A program made the translations under genes and the position numbers. This document shows, piece after piece, positions 42,604 through 49,455 of a DNA stretch of 64,000 nt; within the stretch, counting starts at the first letter, position 1; each line of letters starts with the position of its first letter. This DNA is from Thaumasiovibrio occultus (GTDB lineage: Bacteria > Pseudomonadota > Gammaproteobacteria > Enterobacterales > Vibrionaceae). The DNA is taken from NCBI GenBank assembly GCA_019703815.1, contig AP023052.1:1054001-1118000 (forward strand), in the 5' to 3' direction. The notes under the pieces are model-generated. The model was not told the DNA's origin and ran no database searches. It saw nothing but the letters and a program-made list of their open reading frames with translations.

Positions 42604-43737
42604 TTAGTTGGCTAAAGATCCTACAGCGGCGCGCAGCCGGGTAAGGGCTTGGTCCAGCACTTCATCGCTACACGCAAAATTCAAACGCACAAACTGACGG
42701 TTGCCAAACGCGCTGCCCGGTGACAGGCCAAGACCAAATTGTTCAAACAGACGTGACGGGTTAGGGTGATTAAGCTGGCTGGCATCAATCCATGCGAGAT
42801 ACGTCGCTTCATTCGGCAGCATCGACAGTCCCGGCAATGCGTTCACAGCGTCGAGGACTTTTTGATGTTGTTGACGTAAAAACGCGAGCTGTTGTTGCAG
42901 CCAGTCGTCGCCATGGCGATAAGCGGCAATCGCGGCGTGGAAACCGAGAATATTGACCGCCGGGATCAAACCTTCAAGTGCCTGTTGGATTTGGCGGCGC
43001 AGTGTCGGGTTTTGGATAACGGCAAACGCGCAGCCAAGGCCCGCGATATTGAATGTCTTACTTGGCGCCATCAAGGTGATCGCGCGCTGGGCGGCATCGT
43101 CATTTAGGCTGGCGTAAGGGATATGGCGCGCGTTCTCGTCGATAAGCAAATCACAGTGGATTTCATCGCTGCACACAATCCAGTCGTTGGTTTTTGCCAG
43201 CGCATCGAGCTTGAGCAGTTCATCGCGACGAAATACCGTACCACCCGGATTCAGTGGATTGCATACCATGGCTAAGCGAATGTCTTTAGCTTTGGCATGC
43301 GATGGCAGTTGTGGTAGCCAGCGTCCATCGACGGTATGGCAATCTTGGAATACGCCGTCGCGGCCGTGTTGCTTGATCGCTTGGCGAAATGGCGGGTAGA
43401 TTGGCGTAGGACAGAAAACCGCGTCATTAGGCTGAGTCAGGGTTTGCACGGCCAGATGCAACGCGGTAACCAAACCGGGCAAGTAAACGATATCATCGGC
43501 CGTGATCCGCCAGTCGTAGCGTTGCCATAAACGCTCGACAATCAGCTCGCTTAATTCTTGTGGTGTTTCACCATAGCCAAACACGCCGTGGCTGATCCGC
43601 GCTTGCAACGCTTCAGTGACGCAAAGCGGGGCAGCGAAATCGCTGTCGGCGATCCACAAAGGTAACACGTCTTTACCGGCGAAACGTTGCCATTTGATAC
43701 TGTCTGAGTCTTGTCGAGGGGGAAAAATCAGTGACAC
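42604..43737 (-). CDS. PatB/MalY-type PLP-dependent aminotransferase (probable C-S lyase)
   Basis: The 377-residue fold-type I PLP enzyme shows LPLWIADSDFAAP near 28, the VCNPLNPGGTVF block near 155, SDEIHCDLL near 190 and the PLP lysine in MAPSKTFNIAGLG near 220. The MADMDF-like WIADSDF block is typical of the MalY/PatB group, which mostly act as cystathionine beta-lyases or related C-S lyases. I chose the GTG at 43737 because GGAG lies 7 bases upstream; the frame is open 18 codons further. It lies just after the ATP-grasp gene. Confidence 0.88.
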   Translation of the reverse strand: MSLIFPPRQDSDSIKWQRFAGKDVLPLWIADSDFAAPLCVTEALQARISHGVFGYGETPQELSELIVERLWQRYDWRITADDIVYLPGLVTALHLAVQTLTQPNDAVFCPTPIYPPFRQAIKQHGRDGVFQDCHTVDGRWLPQLPSHAKAKDIRLAMVCNPLNPGGTVFRRDELLKLDALAKTNDWIVCSDEIHCDLLIDENARHIPYASLNDDAAQRAITLMAPSKTFNIAGLGCAFAVIQNPTLRRQIQQALEGLIPAVNILGFHAAIAAYRHGDDWLQQQLAFLRQQHQKVLDAVNALPGLSMLPNEATYLAWIDASQLNHPNPSRLFEQFGLGLSPGSAFGNRQFVRLNFACSDEVLDQALTRLRAAVGSLAN

Positions 43738-43810
43738 CGCGCCACTCCTTGTGGGTGAGATGTTGATAGAGGAAAAGGGTCTGCCGCACACGAGTGTACG
43801 ACAGATGGTA

Positions 43811-44800
43811 TTACAAGGTTGATTCTTTATGGCCGAATTGTTCAGCAGACCAAGCGACGCGCTCAGCGGGAGAAGGGTAGATCAGATGCTCACCCATGCG
43901 CTCAATTAAACGCAGTCGCGGCAACAAACCGGCGTTATTGGCGATTTGGATAGCCAGCCCAGGACGGGCATTAAGCTCCAACACCATAGGACCGCGAGAC
44001 TTATCCAGTACCATATCGGTACCGATGTAACCAAGGCCCGTCATTTCCCATGCGCTAGCGGCAAGCTCAAGCAGCTGCTGCCAATGCGGCACTTGCAACG
44101 TGCTCAGATCTTTTCCGGTATCAGGATGCTCTTTTACCGGCTGATTAAATTGCACCGCATTGATGGCTTTACCTGTCGCGATATCAATCCCCACACCGAC
44201 CGCACCTTGGTGCAAGTTGGCTTTACCGTCTGATGCGGCGGTTGATAAGCGCATCATCGCCATCACGGGGTAGCCTTTAAACACGATCACGCGAATATCA
44301 GGCACACCTTCAAAGCTGAAGCCGTCGAAGACATCGTCAAACTCGATCAGGTTCTCTACCACCGCCACGTCATTTTTACCGCCCAGCGAGAACAAACCCG
44401 CAAGGGTATTGGTGATGTGACGCTCAACGTCTTGCTCGTTGATTTGTGCGCCAGAGGGTTTGGTGTAAATGCCGTTTTCATGCTTTACCACCACCAAGAT
44501 CCCTTTACCGCCTGAGCCTTGCGCGGGTTTGATCACAAAGCCCGGCCAGTCTTTTACCATTTTATGGATGCGCGGAACTTCGGCTTGGTTATCAATCACC
44601 CCAATTAGCTCAGGCACCGTCGCGCCGTGACGCTGGGCGATCACCTTGGTTTTGAGCTTGTCATCCACCAAGGGGTACTTTTTACGATCGTTGTAGCGAC
44701 TAATAAAACCAATGTTACGTTGGTTCATCCCCATAATGCCCTTGCGATGAAGCTTGAATGGGGAGGTGAATCGGGTAAATACCGACAGCATATTAATCAT
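43811..44800 (-). CDS. ATP-grasp alpha-L-glutamate ligase-like protein (RimK-related)
   Basis: The 329-residue protein has an ATP-grasp fold: lysine and glycine-rich loop in VIKPAQGSGGKGILVV near 92-107, and the magnesium-binding GPMVLELNARPGLAIQIAN near 280. It belongs to the RimK-related ligases found with a transglutaminase-like membrane protein and a pepsin-like protease, as here. Such enzymes form amide bonds between a carboxylate and an amine. The substrate is unknown; glutamate is assumed only from the family name. Its start overlaps the end of the previous gene by 8 bases. Last gene of the three-gene unit. Confidence 0.88.
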   Translation of the reverse strand: MINMLSVFTRFTSPFKLHRKGIMGMNQRNIGFISRYNDRKKYPLVDDKLKTKVIAQRHGATVPELIGVIDNQAEVPRIHKMVKDWPGFVIKPAQGSGGKGILVVVKHENGIYTKPSGAQINEQDVERHITNTLAGLFSLGGKNDVAVVENLIEFDDVFDGFSFEGVPDIRVIVFKGYPVMAMMRLSTAASDGKANLHQGAVGVGIDIATGKAINAVQFNQPVKEHPDTGKDLSTLQVPHWQQLLELAASAWEMTGLGYIGTDMVLDKSRGPMVLELNARPGLAIQIANNAGLLPRLRLIERMGEHLIYPSPAERVAWSAEQFGHKESTL

Positions 44801-46301
44801 CCACCAATGGTTTAAAGCGGCGAAGCTCGCTGAGGCGATAGCCGGTATAGTTACCCAGCACCAAGATCAGCGCCAGAATCAAGAACTGAACCCCAATGAA
44901 GTTGAAGGTCAGGTGGCGAACGATATCATTGGTCATCGCAAGGTAAACCAAAATCGCGGTGAGCAGCGATCCGCCGCCTTGGATCATAACTTCTTTCGCG
45001 CCCTCTTCTTCCCACAGAATCGACATACGCTCGATAGTCCAAGACAGGATTATCATCGGGAAGAAGGTGATGGTCAGGCCTTCCACAATGCCCATTTTGT
45101 AGGCAATGACGGTAAAGCCAGAAATAATCATGATCACCATGATGATCACCGCCGAAATCCGCGATACCAGCAGTAAGTTCAAGCGAGACAAATAGCTGCG
45201 GAAGATCAGACCAACGCCGACGATCAGCAAGAAGCCGAGCACCCCAGTCAGAAGCTGCGTTTGGACAAACGACATGGCGATCAAGACGGGCATGAACGTT
45301 CCTGAGGTTTTCAACCCAACCAATATGCGTAGGAACACCACCACTAACGCGCCGATCGGCACCAGCATGATGGTTTTAAACATCGCTTGCTCTTCGACCG
45401 GTAAGCTGTGGATCGAGAAGTTCAACAGGTTATCCGCTTCGACTTTTTGATCGGTGGCCTGCTGCGGGGTAATGTCTTGCGCAATGTAAGAGAAGGTGAT
45501 CGCACTGTTTTGACCGCCCATGACATCGAGCATGGACGCGCCGGTTTCATTCCAGATCAACACGTTTTCTGGTTGGCCTTCTGCGCCGGTCGCGGCATCA
45601 AACAGCAGCCACTCACTGCCGTCCCAGACATGGATCATTTGCGAGCCTGTTTGACGGCGACGGCCATCTTCGAGCGTTAAGCCATAGACGATTCGCGCCG
45701 GTACTTGCTCCATCGCCAGCAAGGAGGTGATGAGTTGCTCACGTTTGAAGTAGTTAAGCAGCAGCGCGGCATTTTGGTTTTCAGCGTTATTGAATTGCTT
45801 AATCACCTCGCGCGTTAAGGTGCGTGCATCGGCTGATTGTTCGCGGGCACTATCAAGCAGAGCGTACGCGGCTTTTTGCTGCGATTCATCAAACATTAAG
45901 CGACCACTGATCGCGATTGGCGCTGTTTCGGTGACTGCCGCTTTCGCGTCAACCAGCATTTGGGTTTTGTAGTACAGGATTTGACGACCATCGGCGCTAC
46001 GACGAGTCCACTCAACGCGGCGGCCTTGCTCTTGGTCATCAACAAATGCGACACCGTAGCCTGGAGATGAGGTGGTTTCATTGATCAAGGTGAAGCCGTG
46101 TTGGGTGTCTGGGGCAGCCATACTCACGCGAACCGGATCGCCGCTGGCTTCAAACTCAATGCGCGCTTCAATTTCCCATACTTGTGCGCTGCTTTCAGGA
46201 AGTAGCGGTACACCGTACACTTGGTGGCGGTGCATAATCAGCGCCAAGCCTGCCAAAATCAGTGTGGTGATTAGCAGGTAAAAAGGGGTTCTGGAAACCA
46301 T
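44793..46301 (-). CDS. Inactive transglutaminase domain protein fused to seven transmembrane helices
   Basis: The 502-residue protein has an N-terminal membrane anchor (about 7-24), a periplasmic transglutaminase-like domain (about 30-300) with VPARIVYGLTLEDG and HVWDGSEWLLFDAATG, and seven hydrophobic helices (about 310-490). The usual catalytic cysteine of transglutaminases is not visible at the expected place, where the sequence has FKREQLITSLLAM; this agrees with the family name. It would bind peptide-like material in the periplasm and link it to the cytoplasmic ligase. Middle gene of the unit. Confidence 0.88.
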   Translation of the reverse strand: MVSRTPFYLLITTLILAGLALIMHRHQVYGVPLLPESSAQVWEIEARIEFEASGDPVRVSMAAPDTQHGFTLINETTSSPGYGVAFVDDQEQGRRVEWTRRSADGRQILYYKTQMLVDAKAAVTETAPIAISGRLMFDESQQKAAYALLDSAREQSADARTLTREVIKQFNNAENQNAALLLNYFKREQLITSLLAMEQVPARIVYGLTLEDGRRRQTGSQMIHVWDGSEWLLFDAATGAEGQPENVLIWNETGASMLDVMGGQNSAITFSYIAQDITPQQATDQKVEADNLLNFSIHSLPVEEQAMFKTIMLVPIGALVVVFLRILVGLKTSGTFMPVLIAMSFVQTQLLTGVLGFLLIVGVGLIFRSYLSRLNLLLVSRISAVIIMVIMIISGFTVIAYKMGIVEGLTITFFPMIILSWTIERMSILWEEEGAKEVMIQGGGSLLTAILVYLAMTNDIVRHLTFNFIGVQFLILALILVLGNYTGYRLSELRRFKPLVDD

Positions 46302-46322
46302 AATTTCCTCAGTGAAAAATTA

Positions 46323-47111
46323 TTATTTGCTAGCAGCAGGGTCAACTTTGCCTTGCACAAACGAGCGCGCAACATCGACAACCGCAATATCTTGGAAGAA
46401 CTCACGACCAAGTAAGATCGGATATTCCATTTGGGTGCGATCGGCCAAGGTAAATTGGGTCTTCTCGTGAATGTCGCCAATGCGGATCCACGCTTCAATC
46501 ACAGGGCGGCGGTCAGTGCTATCCGCGCTGGATTGACGGATTTTGACCCAACGAACGACCGGCGCTTCAATGATCTCATGGCGACCTTCAAGATCGTCTT
46601 GGGTATGAGCGAGATTGAAACGCACCCAGTTCTTGCCTTCGCGCTCGAATTCTTGAATATCGGTGGCGTTGAGTGATGAGGTGGTCGCGCCGGTATCGAC
46701 CCGCGCTTTAAACTGACTGTTGGCCAAATCAAACCAGACCCACTCTTCTGCGCCAAGCACAATTTTGTCTGACGGGGCAGGGGTCGATGCCGCAACCGGT
46801 GTCGGCTCAGATTCCGCACGCTGCTGGACAACATAACGCTGTTGATTGATTTGACGTTGCAAACGGAGCAAAAGGGCGTTTTGCTCTTGCATGGCTTCGG
46901 TCACCAACTCCAAACTCACTTGTAATTGTTGTATGGTGGTTTGTTGATGGTTGATACGAGAATAGAGGCCGTCTATGTGGGTATTCACACTAGACTCCGA
47001 TTGCTCGATAGCGTTCAACGTCCCCTCGTGGGATGCGCGGTACTGTTCTTCGGTGAGAACACAACCGGATAAGGCGGCGACGATGACGAAAGGCAAGCTA
47101 TGACGAAGCAT
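46323..47111 (-). CDS. Retropepsin-like aspartic protease lipoprotein (RimK/LysX-associated)
   Basis: The 262-residue protein has a lipobox LSGC with the cysteine at 17, a long helical coiled-coil region (about 20-95), a Pro/Ala linker and a C-terminal retropepsin-like domain (about 115-255). The active-site motif is RVDTGATTSSL with the aspartate at 139, and the family's LLGREFF block is near 235. It was once described as an ATP-dependent zinc protease, but the DTGA motif indicates an aspartic protease. It would be anchored in the envelope, facing the periplasm. First gene of the unit. Confidence 0.88.
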   Translation of the reverse strand: MLRHSLPFVIVAALSGCVLTEEQYRASHEGTLNAIEQSESSVNTHIDGLYSRINHQQTTIQQLQVSLELVTEAMQEQNALLLRLQRQINQQRYVVQQRAESEPTPVAASTPAPSDKIVLGAEEWVWFDLANSQFKARVDTGATTSSLNATDIQEFEREGKNWVRFNLAHTQDDLEGRHEIIEAPVVRWVKIRQSSADSTDRRPVIEAWIRIGDIHEKTQFTLADRTQMEYPILLGREFFQDIAVVDVARSFVQGKVDPAASK

Positions 47112-47165
47112 CCAGTTCTCCTGAAATTCTTACTACGTAGTGGTACGGCGGTAGTTTAGCTTAGT

Positions 47166-47194
47166 GTCAAGGCGAGTGCCACGCTCACCTTGAC
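47166..47194 (-). terminator. Hairpin between cmoB and the protease gene
   Basis: GTCAAGG and CCTTGAC form the stem, extended inside by GAG/CTC. No T-run follows on the minus strand; it may end or stabilise the cmoAB transcript. Confidence 0.4.
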
Positions 47195-47206
47195 TCAATT
47201 TGTTGA

Positions 47207-48181
47207 TTAATTTGGGTTTGTGGCAACCAAAATTGCGCGTTTCGGTGCTGGATAACCTTCAACCGTTTTGGTTGGGTCGTTCGGATCTAAATAATCAGGC
47301 AATGAATTGTGGGTCATCCAACCGGTGGTGCGTTGCTCATCAGTTGAGGTGACGCACTCATCGACGATGCGGACGTTTTCAAACCCAGTCAGCTCTAGCC
47401 ACACTTTCAGTGCGCGTGCCGATGGGAAGAAGTAGACGTTACGCATTTGCGCGTAGCGACTTGTCGGCACCAGCACCGCGTTTTCGTCACCATCGATCAC
47501 CAAGGTTTCCAACACCAATTCCCCACCTTTTGTTAGCTGGTTCTTTAGTTGTAGCAGGTGATCCAGCGGAGAGCGACGGTGATACAGCACACCCATACTG
47601 AAGACAGTGTCAAAGGCACGGAGTTCAGGCAGTTGCTCAATGCCTAACGGCAGCAAGTGCGCACGTTGATCGTTACCCAATAGCTTTCTGACCGCTTCAA
47701 ACTGCACCAAGAACAGATGCGATGGATCGATACCGACAGTCAGCGCCGCACCTTCACCTAGCATGCGCCACATGTGATAGCCATTGCCACAGCCCACATC
47801 TAACACATAGCGGCCTTTAAGTGGCGAGATGTGCGGCAGTACGCGATCCCATTTCCAGTCAGAGCGCCACTCGGTATCAATATGGATGCCGTGCAGGTGG
47901 TACGGGCCTTTGCGCCATGGGTGAAAAGAGCGCAGTAGGTTTTCTAGTTTGGCTTTTTCGCCTTCATGCAGCGGTTGTTCGTTATGGATTTCGACCGCTG
48001 TTTTTAGGTCGATATGGTCCGGCGTTTCCACCGGGATCTTTTTCAACACGCGCAGCCACTTTGGCATGTCGCCGTGCTCCGCGTTCTGCCAATCGGTCAG
48101 TTGTTGCGGTAGCGTGTTTAGCCACGGGCTAAGGCGGTTCTTAGCGATAAGTTGATAAAAATCGGAAAAATCAAATTTCAT
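47207..48181 (-). CDS. cmoB: tRNA U34 carboxymethyltransferase CmoB
   Basis: CmoB transfers a carboxymethyl group from carboxy-SAM to 5-hydroxyuridine at the tRNA wobble position, giving cmo5U. The 324-residue protein shows an N-terminal helical domain, then the methyltransferase domain with [19 protein letters not shown] near 124-142 and [15 protein letters not shown] near 198. It lies 48 bases after cmoA, the enzyme that makes its donor. Confidence 0.97.
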
Positions 48182-48229
48182 GTTGTTACCTTGGCGCGTT
48201 CATCGTCGCCATTATTCAGTTGCTCGCGT

Positions 48230-49455
<1,226 letters not shown>

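Follow-up and report, generated by a model that had tools for sequence, protein, structure and literature searches.

The rlo-Type Locus of Thaumasiovibrio occultus

The stretch of DNA considered here (the window) comprises 64,000 nucleotides of contig AP023052.1 of Thaumasiovibrio occultus, a member of the Vibrionaceae with a genome of 4.5 Mb in two contigs, and harbors three consecutive genes on its minus strand (Table 1). Judged by their sequences, these genes are an rlo-type (rloABC) operon: rloA, rloB, and rloC follow one another on the same strand and at short spacing—the open reading frames of rloA and rloB are separated by 21 bp, those of rloB and rloC overlap by 8 bp—and they encode the corresponding domains, including a protease with a DTGA motif and a predicted export signal. 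A first-pass annotation made from the sequence alone had recognized three overlapping or closely spaced genes between positions 43811 and 47111, and this arrangement is confirmed.

Table 1. Features of the rlo-type locus (window positions) and parts of RloA (residues).
Feature	Position	Strand	Description
rloA-like gene	46323..47111	minus	262 residues; PF05618
RloA parts			signal peptide, lipid Cys17, stalk helix ~21-98, flexible linker, retropepsin domain ~116-250, DTGA at D139
rloB-like gene	44793..46301	minus	502 residues; PF14400 + PF14402
rloC-like gene	43811..44800	minus	329 residues; PF14397, TIGR02291
Candidate intrinsic terminator just 3′ of rloC	43780..43805	minus	11-pair stem, then CCCTTTTCCT; consensus match
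cmoB-rloA gap	47112..47206	minus	95 bp; likely leader/promoter region

The rloABC genes were named and characterized in 2025 in Pseudomonas aeruginosa (PMC12239564). The window shares with this system the same genes in the same order, a DTGA protease with an export signal, an RloB protein combining a transglutaminase fold with a membrane domain, and an ATP-grasp RloC. A P. aeruginosa strain lacking all three RloA proteases does not grow without salt. An RloA mutated in its catalytic aspartate, which is needed in vivo, fails to rescue growth, and deletion of either rloB or rloC fully restores salt-free growth of the triple rloA mutant (PMC12239564). A literature search for later work naming rloA, rloB, or rloC returned only this article (mBio). 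The rlo system itself is already known; the stalked lipoprotein form of its protease described below appears, from sequence, to be an unreported variant.

Distribution and Linkage

The main sample consisted of 249 Pseudomonadota genomes, 43 of which encode the RloB domain PF14402. Exactly the same 43 genomes contain matches of at least 250 bits to TIGR02291, the RimK-related ligase model matched by RloC; the best match in the other 206 reaches 55.8 bits, and the curated cut-off of the model is exceeded in 38 of the 43 RloB genomes. As in the window, rloB and rloC are direct neighbors in each of the 42 other loci read, most of which show short gaps or overlaps. If any protease is counted, the A-B-C order on one strand is found in 37 of these 42 sampled loci. 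Locus L048, counted among the 37, has a RimB-like protease gene without a signal peptide, located 1.9 kb away; a secreted RloA lies next to rloB in 36 sampled loci and in the window. Near relatives—the best 80 of at least 572 confirmed matches, skewed toward close kin (Photobacterium, Vibrio, Aeromonas, Halomonas, and others)—show the order in 79 of 80 cases; the remaining locus is truncated at the end of its contig. Among the matches listed, the closest RloB proteins in named genomes stem from Photobacterium and are up to 72% identical in the best segment. The gene order and adjacency of the rlo trio are not due to chance.

A lack of co-occurrence in related genomes had been proposed in the first-pass annotation as an observation that would speak against a joint pathway. 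RloB and RloC occur together throughout the 43 genomes. For the protease, such a lack is found in part: no secreted retropepsin was found in five of the 43 genomes, and at one locus (L071) no RloA is encoded beside RloB, the secreted protease, with a signal peptide and two cysteines, being encoded by an unlinked gene (L205, genome G169). These cases would fit a mere conserved neighborhood of three genes with unrelated functions. We regard this as highly improbable, since it is contradicted by the epistasis observed in Pseudomonas (PMC12239564) and disfavored by the co-occurrence of RloB with RloC and by the short gaps or overlaps in most loci.

RloA Is a Predicted Stalked Lipoprotein Protease

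RloA of the window matches PF05618 with 158.9 bits (cut-off 27). A reading of its sequence identifies the lipobox LSG-C17 and the catalytic aspartate D139, in agreement with the lipid-anchored DTGA aspartic protease annotated earlier; its export is predicted. The lipid-bearing cysteine is followed by valine, and by the usual rule a lipoprotein with valine in this position is sent to the outer membrane. RloA is thus probably held by the outer membrane. The stalk following the anchor is a glutamine-rich helix, and its annotation as a coiled coil gains support from the heptad score, which is matched by 4 of 500 shuffles of the stalk, and from an AlphaFold2 model of the single chain. In this model, residues 21-98 form one helix (block pLDDT of 94-97 at 31-90, and 83 and 73 at the ends), after which come a linker predicted with low confidence and then the protease domain. 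The 78 helical residues would span about 12 nm. Across an alignment of 55 RloA proteins (A4; redundant or cut rows omitted), 38 of the 55 stalks have heptad scores that no more than 5 of 100 shuffles attain.

In Foldseek searches, the modeled protease domain matched best RloA2 (9g59) and RloA (9g58) of Pseudomonas with E values of about 5e-12, and the Legionella protein 2pma with an E value of 8e-11; at the sequence level, the match to the solved Pseudomonas RloA 9g58 reaches 4.4e-19. The protein is not a RimB, given its signal peptide and lipobox and a score of 96.1 bits versus the cut-off of 200 of the NCBIfam RimB model.

A cysteine pair in the protease domain is said to be conserved among periplasmic RloA orthologs, and the terms "lipoprotein" and "coiled coil" are absent from the main text of that paper (PMC12239564). 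In contrast to the P. aeruginosa system, the window encodes a lipoprotein RloA with a long helical stalk; this pair is missing from it, no cysteine at all being present after D139. The same form predominates in a tally of 117 RloA proteins (the window, 37 from sampled loci, and 79 near relatives), in which lipoboxes and signal peptides were scored by regular expression or by eye. Ninety-eight are lipoproteins with a spacer preceding a cysteine-free protease domain, and 16 are soluble proteins in which exactly two cysteines follow the active site. The others combine a spacer with an ordinary signal peptide (L128), are soluble without cysteines (L040), or correspond to the signal-less RimB-like protein mentioned above (L048); the unlinked protease L205 stands outside the 117. 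Among the 98 lipoproteins, one (L114) shows an apparent frameshift after the active site, with cysteines only beyond it, and another (L059) has the shortest spacer, which is not clearly helical. The lipoprotein form of RloA hence breaks the rule of a conserved cysteine pair in periplasmic orthologs. The distance from the lipid-bearing cysteine to the catalytic aspartate, scored by script, amounts to 104-138 residues (median 117) in near relatives and to 84-138 in sampled loci, the latter range including three false lipoboxes in proteins with over-long N-termini (L039, L064, and L074). We infer that the protease is held together by the stalk in place of the disulfide and that the stalk sets its reach.

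Two RloA lipoproteins of Marinagarivorans (Cellvibrionaceae; L129 and L149) are devoid of the DTG motif and display VDDEA and LDTAL instead. They are possibly dead proteases, as far as sequence can tell, in an otherwise intact operon.

RloB and RloC: a Dead Transglutaminase Domain Next to a Glutamate-Ligase-Like Enzyme

RloB matches PF14400 (181.8 bits) and PF14402 (358.3 bits; cut-off 25 each), the seven helices of the membrane domain being Pfam's description. Its model (mean pLDDT 82, pTM 0.63) has one helix at the N terminus and is mostly helical in its C-terminal half. The periplasmic domain is predicted to adopt a transglutaminase fold: 3isr is the sole Foldseek entry with an E value below 0.001, and the model aligns to it with a Z score of 13.9 over 216 residues. 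The Z score of 6.6 to TgpA (6g49), which shares the fold, lies within the background when taken alone. In contrast to 3isr and TgpA, the domain is free of cysteine in the window and in 37 of the 42 other sampled RloB proteins. The window RloB contains no cysteine in its entire length and no histidine at the triad column and therefore lacks the Cys-His-Asp triad of an active transglutaminase or cysteine peptidase, as the first-pass annotation had suspected for the cysteine. In total, 38 of the 43 sampled RloB proteins have a cysteine-less transglutaminase domain, two have no such domain, and three carry Cys, His, and Asp in register. Alignment A1 covers 39 of the 43, the other four having been checked for cysteine separately. 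None of the 80 near-relative RloB proteins has a cysteine in this domain (the frames of L104 and L114 are partial); alignment A2 comprises 54 RloB proteins, redundant or cut rows being omitted. The membrane domain features five charged residues that are invariant among 39 aligned RloB proteins, namely R325, E424, R425, E492, and R495.

Two candidate likenesses of the membrane domain were rejected. An internal repeat was dropped, as hhalign of the two halves gave a probability of 0.5%, and a resemblance of residues 331-436 to RND transporters (Z of about 5 to 7) lies within the background for helical models and was not used.

RloC matches PF14397 with 338.8 bits (cut-off 31.4) and passes the cut-off of TIGR02291 (530.8 versus 314.2 bits), a RimK-related ligase model marked as a hypothetical equivalog by NCBIfam. 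It is thus predicted to be a cytoplasmic ATP-grasp protein resembling alpha-L-glutamate ligases.

A Live Triad and a Secreted Retropepsin Exclude Each Other in the Sample

All 38 genomes with a cysteine-less RloB domain encode a secreted RloA, located beside rloB in 37 (36 sampled loci and the window) and unlinked in one (L205). These retropepsins are either soluble, most of them with the cysteine pair, or lipid-anchored on a stalk. An intact Cys-His-Asp triad is found in five RloB proteins (L045-L047, L210, and L214), three from the 43-genome sample and two more from 78 genomes of the same class. They belong to one family, which we take to be Zetaproteobacteria or similar, and each adjoins an RloC-like frame. 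No PF05618 protein was found in four of these five genomes, and the fifth has one without a signal peptide. Since cysteine-less RloB is always accompanied by a secreted retropepsin and intact-triad RloB never is, a live triad and a secreted retropepsin are mutually exclusive in this sample.

Two further genomes of one family (f38; L048 and L049) encode short RloB proteins of 385 and 373 residues that lack the transglutaminase domain and adjoin an RloC-like gene; the PF05618 proteins found in these two genomes are all signal-less.

The exclusion might tentatively be read as a trimming step invented twice, with RloB as a product exporter that once had its own processing peptidase, later replaced in evolution by a retropepsin. 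We consider this possible, though less likely than not. Two of the five intact-triad genomes are 88% complete, and the two f38 genomes lack both the transglutaminase domain and a secreted retropepsin. Moreover, since all live-triad cases fall into one family, they perhaps represent a single evolutionary event, which weakens the pattern.

A Proposed Make-and-Trim Pathway across the Envelope

The Pseudomonas RloA proteases are dimeric retropepsins that cleave polyglutamate and runs of glutamate in vitro; what they cut naturally and what RloB and RloC do is left open by the authors (PMC12239564). The earlier remark that the substrate is not established is hence partly outdated, given this cleavage and the in vivo requirement for the aspartate, and still applies to the natural substrate. 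A related principle is known from RimB and RimK, which cleave and make poly-alpha-glutamate, respectively (PMC11957791). The window operon likewise combines a retropepsin of a polyglutamate-cleaving type with an ATP-grasp protein of the glutamate ligase type; RimB, however, has no export signal and is cytoplasmic, and no RloB is part of that system.

We lean toward a pathway in which RloC makes, RloB exposes, and RloA trims a (poly)glutamate product that harms the envelope if left untrimmed. First, RloC would build an alpha-linked (poly)glutamate in the cytoplasm, either free or on some acceptor, a step suggested by its RimK-like family and the Pseudomonas epistasis. Next, RloB would carry the product to the periplasmic side or expose it there, as its topology and the invariant charged residues of the membrane domain suggest; this is the weakest step. 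Within the periplasm, the chain would be held by the dead transglutaminase domain and cut by RloA, acting as a dimeric retropepsin; the cutting step is proposed on the basis of the published cleavage assays. In the window, a tether consisting of the lipid and the stalk of ~12 nm, rather than a disulfide, would provide for dimer formation and reach. If RloA is missing, the untrimmed product of RloB and RloC would damage the envelope under low osmolarity. The present analysis contributes sequence, fold, and linkage to this scheme; RloA cleavage and the epistasis of rloB and rloC over rloA were demonstrated by others in Pseudomonas.

Several points weigh against this pathway. We know of no polyglutamate product in these cells. 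Solved-structure relatives of RloC match weakly (best 2e-4), and the window RloA misses the NCBIfam cut-offs for RloA3 (113.6 of 210 bits), RloA2 (87.1 of 250), and RloA (85 of 280); 17 of the 55 aligned stalks are unremarkable in the heptad test. RloB scores 353.5 bits against NF052267 and misses its cut-off of 900; since the match is full-length, we take it for a relative outside this narrow model. Fold searches with the whole-protein model found no convincing solved-structure relative of the membrane domain, and its homology to CapC/PgsC (PF14102) was not supported (three thin CapC alignments gave hhalign probabilities of 4.5%, 0.3%, and 1.2%, the first of them built from five proteins only). 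Trimming by a retropepsin is not universal, given the five sampled genomes without a secreted one, two of which (f38) also lack the transglutaminase domain. In the Pseudomonas work, RloC activity was not shown, single deletions of rloB or rloC are also defective, and the biofilm, antibiotic, and shape defects of the triple mutant are rescued only partly (PMC12239564). Because of these single-deletion defects and the partial rescue, the product is not merely toxic.

CapC/PgsC, which acts in poly-gamma-glutamate synthesis, would be analogous to RloB in role, as a membrane component of a polyglutamate system. The motifs of the RloB membrane domain were presumed by us to be CapC-like, which the profile comparison did not bear out; the likeness is retained as an analogy. 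PF14102 was not listed at E values up to 10 for the window RloB and 39 members, HMMER filters dropping most weak matches. One CapC query had no solved-structure relative by sequence, which renders the absence of CapC from the fold lists uninformative. A scan of viral contigs for further CapC proteins confirmed none, and the five stretches of 9 to 16.5 kb around CapC genes of Zetaproteobacteria-like origin contained no RloC-, RimK-, or RloB-like frames. Such genomes also encode proteins of ~1080 residues with two CapC-like units (L081-L088 and L198-L202). Within the 78-genome class, CapC and RloB carriers are separate genomes, five each.

Two other explanations bear on the product and on RloB. 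RloC might glutamylate or amidate an envelope acceptor—a lipid carrier, a wall precursor, or a protein—and RloA would remove or cut this modification and thereby regulate wall enzymes, with no free polyglutamate involved. Triple rloA mutants of Pseudomonas have cell-shape defects when unstressed and are sensitive to wall antibiotics, a link to peptidoglycan being called "tempting" by the authors (PMC12239564), and in Shewanella vesiculosa, vesicle output rises when a gene for an "inactive transglutaminase" is disrupted (PMC12096838). No acceptor is known, however, and RloA cuts plain glutamate runs in vitro (PMC12239564); we therefore see this explanation as possible but not probable. Alternatively, RloB could mainly serve as a sensor or scaffold and control RloC from the periplasm, RloA cleaving RloB or a partner rather than the product of RloC. 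The cysteine-free transglutaminase domain of 38 of the 43 sampled RloB proteins and the invariant charged residues would also fit signaling. This is nevertheless unlikely, as RloA cleaves glutamate runs, genome-encoded acidic stretches were judged improbable substrates by the authors (PMC12239564), and some RloB proteins have an intact peptidase-type triad. The first-pass annotation had proposed an envelope-spanning pathway that makes a product inside and senses or trims peptides outside. Its make-inside and trim-outside part fits the Pseudomonas data and the co-occurrence of the genes and is retained in the make-and-trim pathway favored here, while sensing finds no support.

Other Retropepsins and Flanking Features

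The same genome encodes, outside the window, a secreted protein of 627 residues with a signal peptide and four tandem retropepsin-like units (G000:C1:1928571-1930454; L079:3571-5454, minus strand). Aligned to the RloA protease-domain profile with hhalign, the four units reach probabilities of 99.6, 96.8, 81.9, and 99.8%; with single-sequence HMMs, units 2 and 3 score weakly, and unit 3 of the T. occultus protein gave no score. The DTG motif is kept only in units 1 and 4, both in this protein and in seven aligned relatives. With a catalytic aspartate in the two end units only, a single active site within one chain is conceivable, and the protein might form one, judging by the motifs. By analogy to RloA2 and RloA3 of Pseudomonas, it is likely a second periplasmic retropepsin of this organism. 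Of 81 genomes in the window's family, 12, counting the window's own genome, contain a long match; among 184 genomes of the class, no match outside the host exceeds ~160 of the 627 residues (long frames at some of these hits were left unexamined). A RimB-RimK-type pair is located in the same genome at about 3.033-3.035 Mb of G000:C1.

The cmoA and cmoB genes lie upstream of rloA, and a cmoB relative accompanies the rlo genes at 10 of the 42 sampled loci and in 39 of the 80 near relatives. No sigma-70-like match is listed within the cmoB-rloA gap; read by eye, the gap contains tcaaggtgagcg...actcgccttgaca, an imperfect inverted repeat that lacks a T run. The hairpin after rloC is a possible, weakly supported terminator: nine terminator-like sites were observed in 43600-49100 versus 6.7 (sd 2.8) expected by shuffling.

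Implications

No description of the stalked RloA, of the exclusion between live triad and secreted retropepsin, or of the four-unit protein was found in the literature searched, a scope that did not extend to papers on "ATP-dependent zinc proteases" (among them an association study of Vibrio cholerae and a secretome paper on Legionella). Searches on a lipoprotein or coiled-coil retropepsin returned nothing, and those on tandem retropepsins gave unrelated papers only. In Pseudomonas, the rlo system influences how cells survive osmotic stress, form biofilms, and tolerate wall antibiotics (PMC12239564). The stalked lipoprotein form makes the location and dimerization of the protease amenable to testing. 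Likewise, the exclusion pattern hints, in a testable manner, at what the transglutaminase domain of RloB may touch, namely the same product that RloA cuts.

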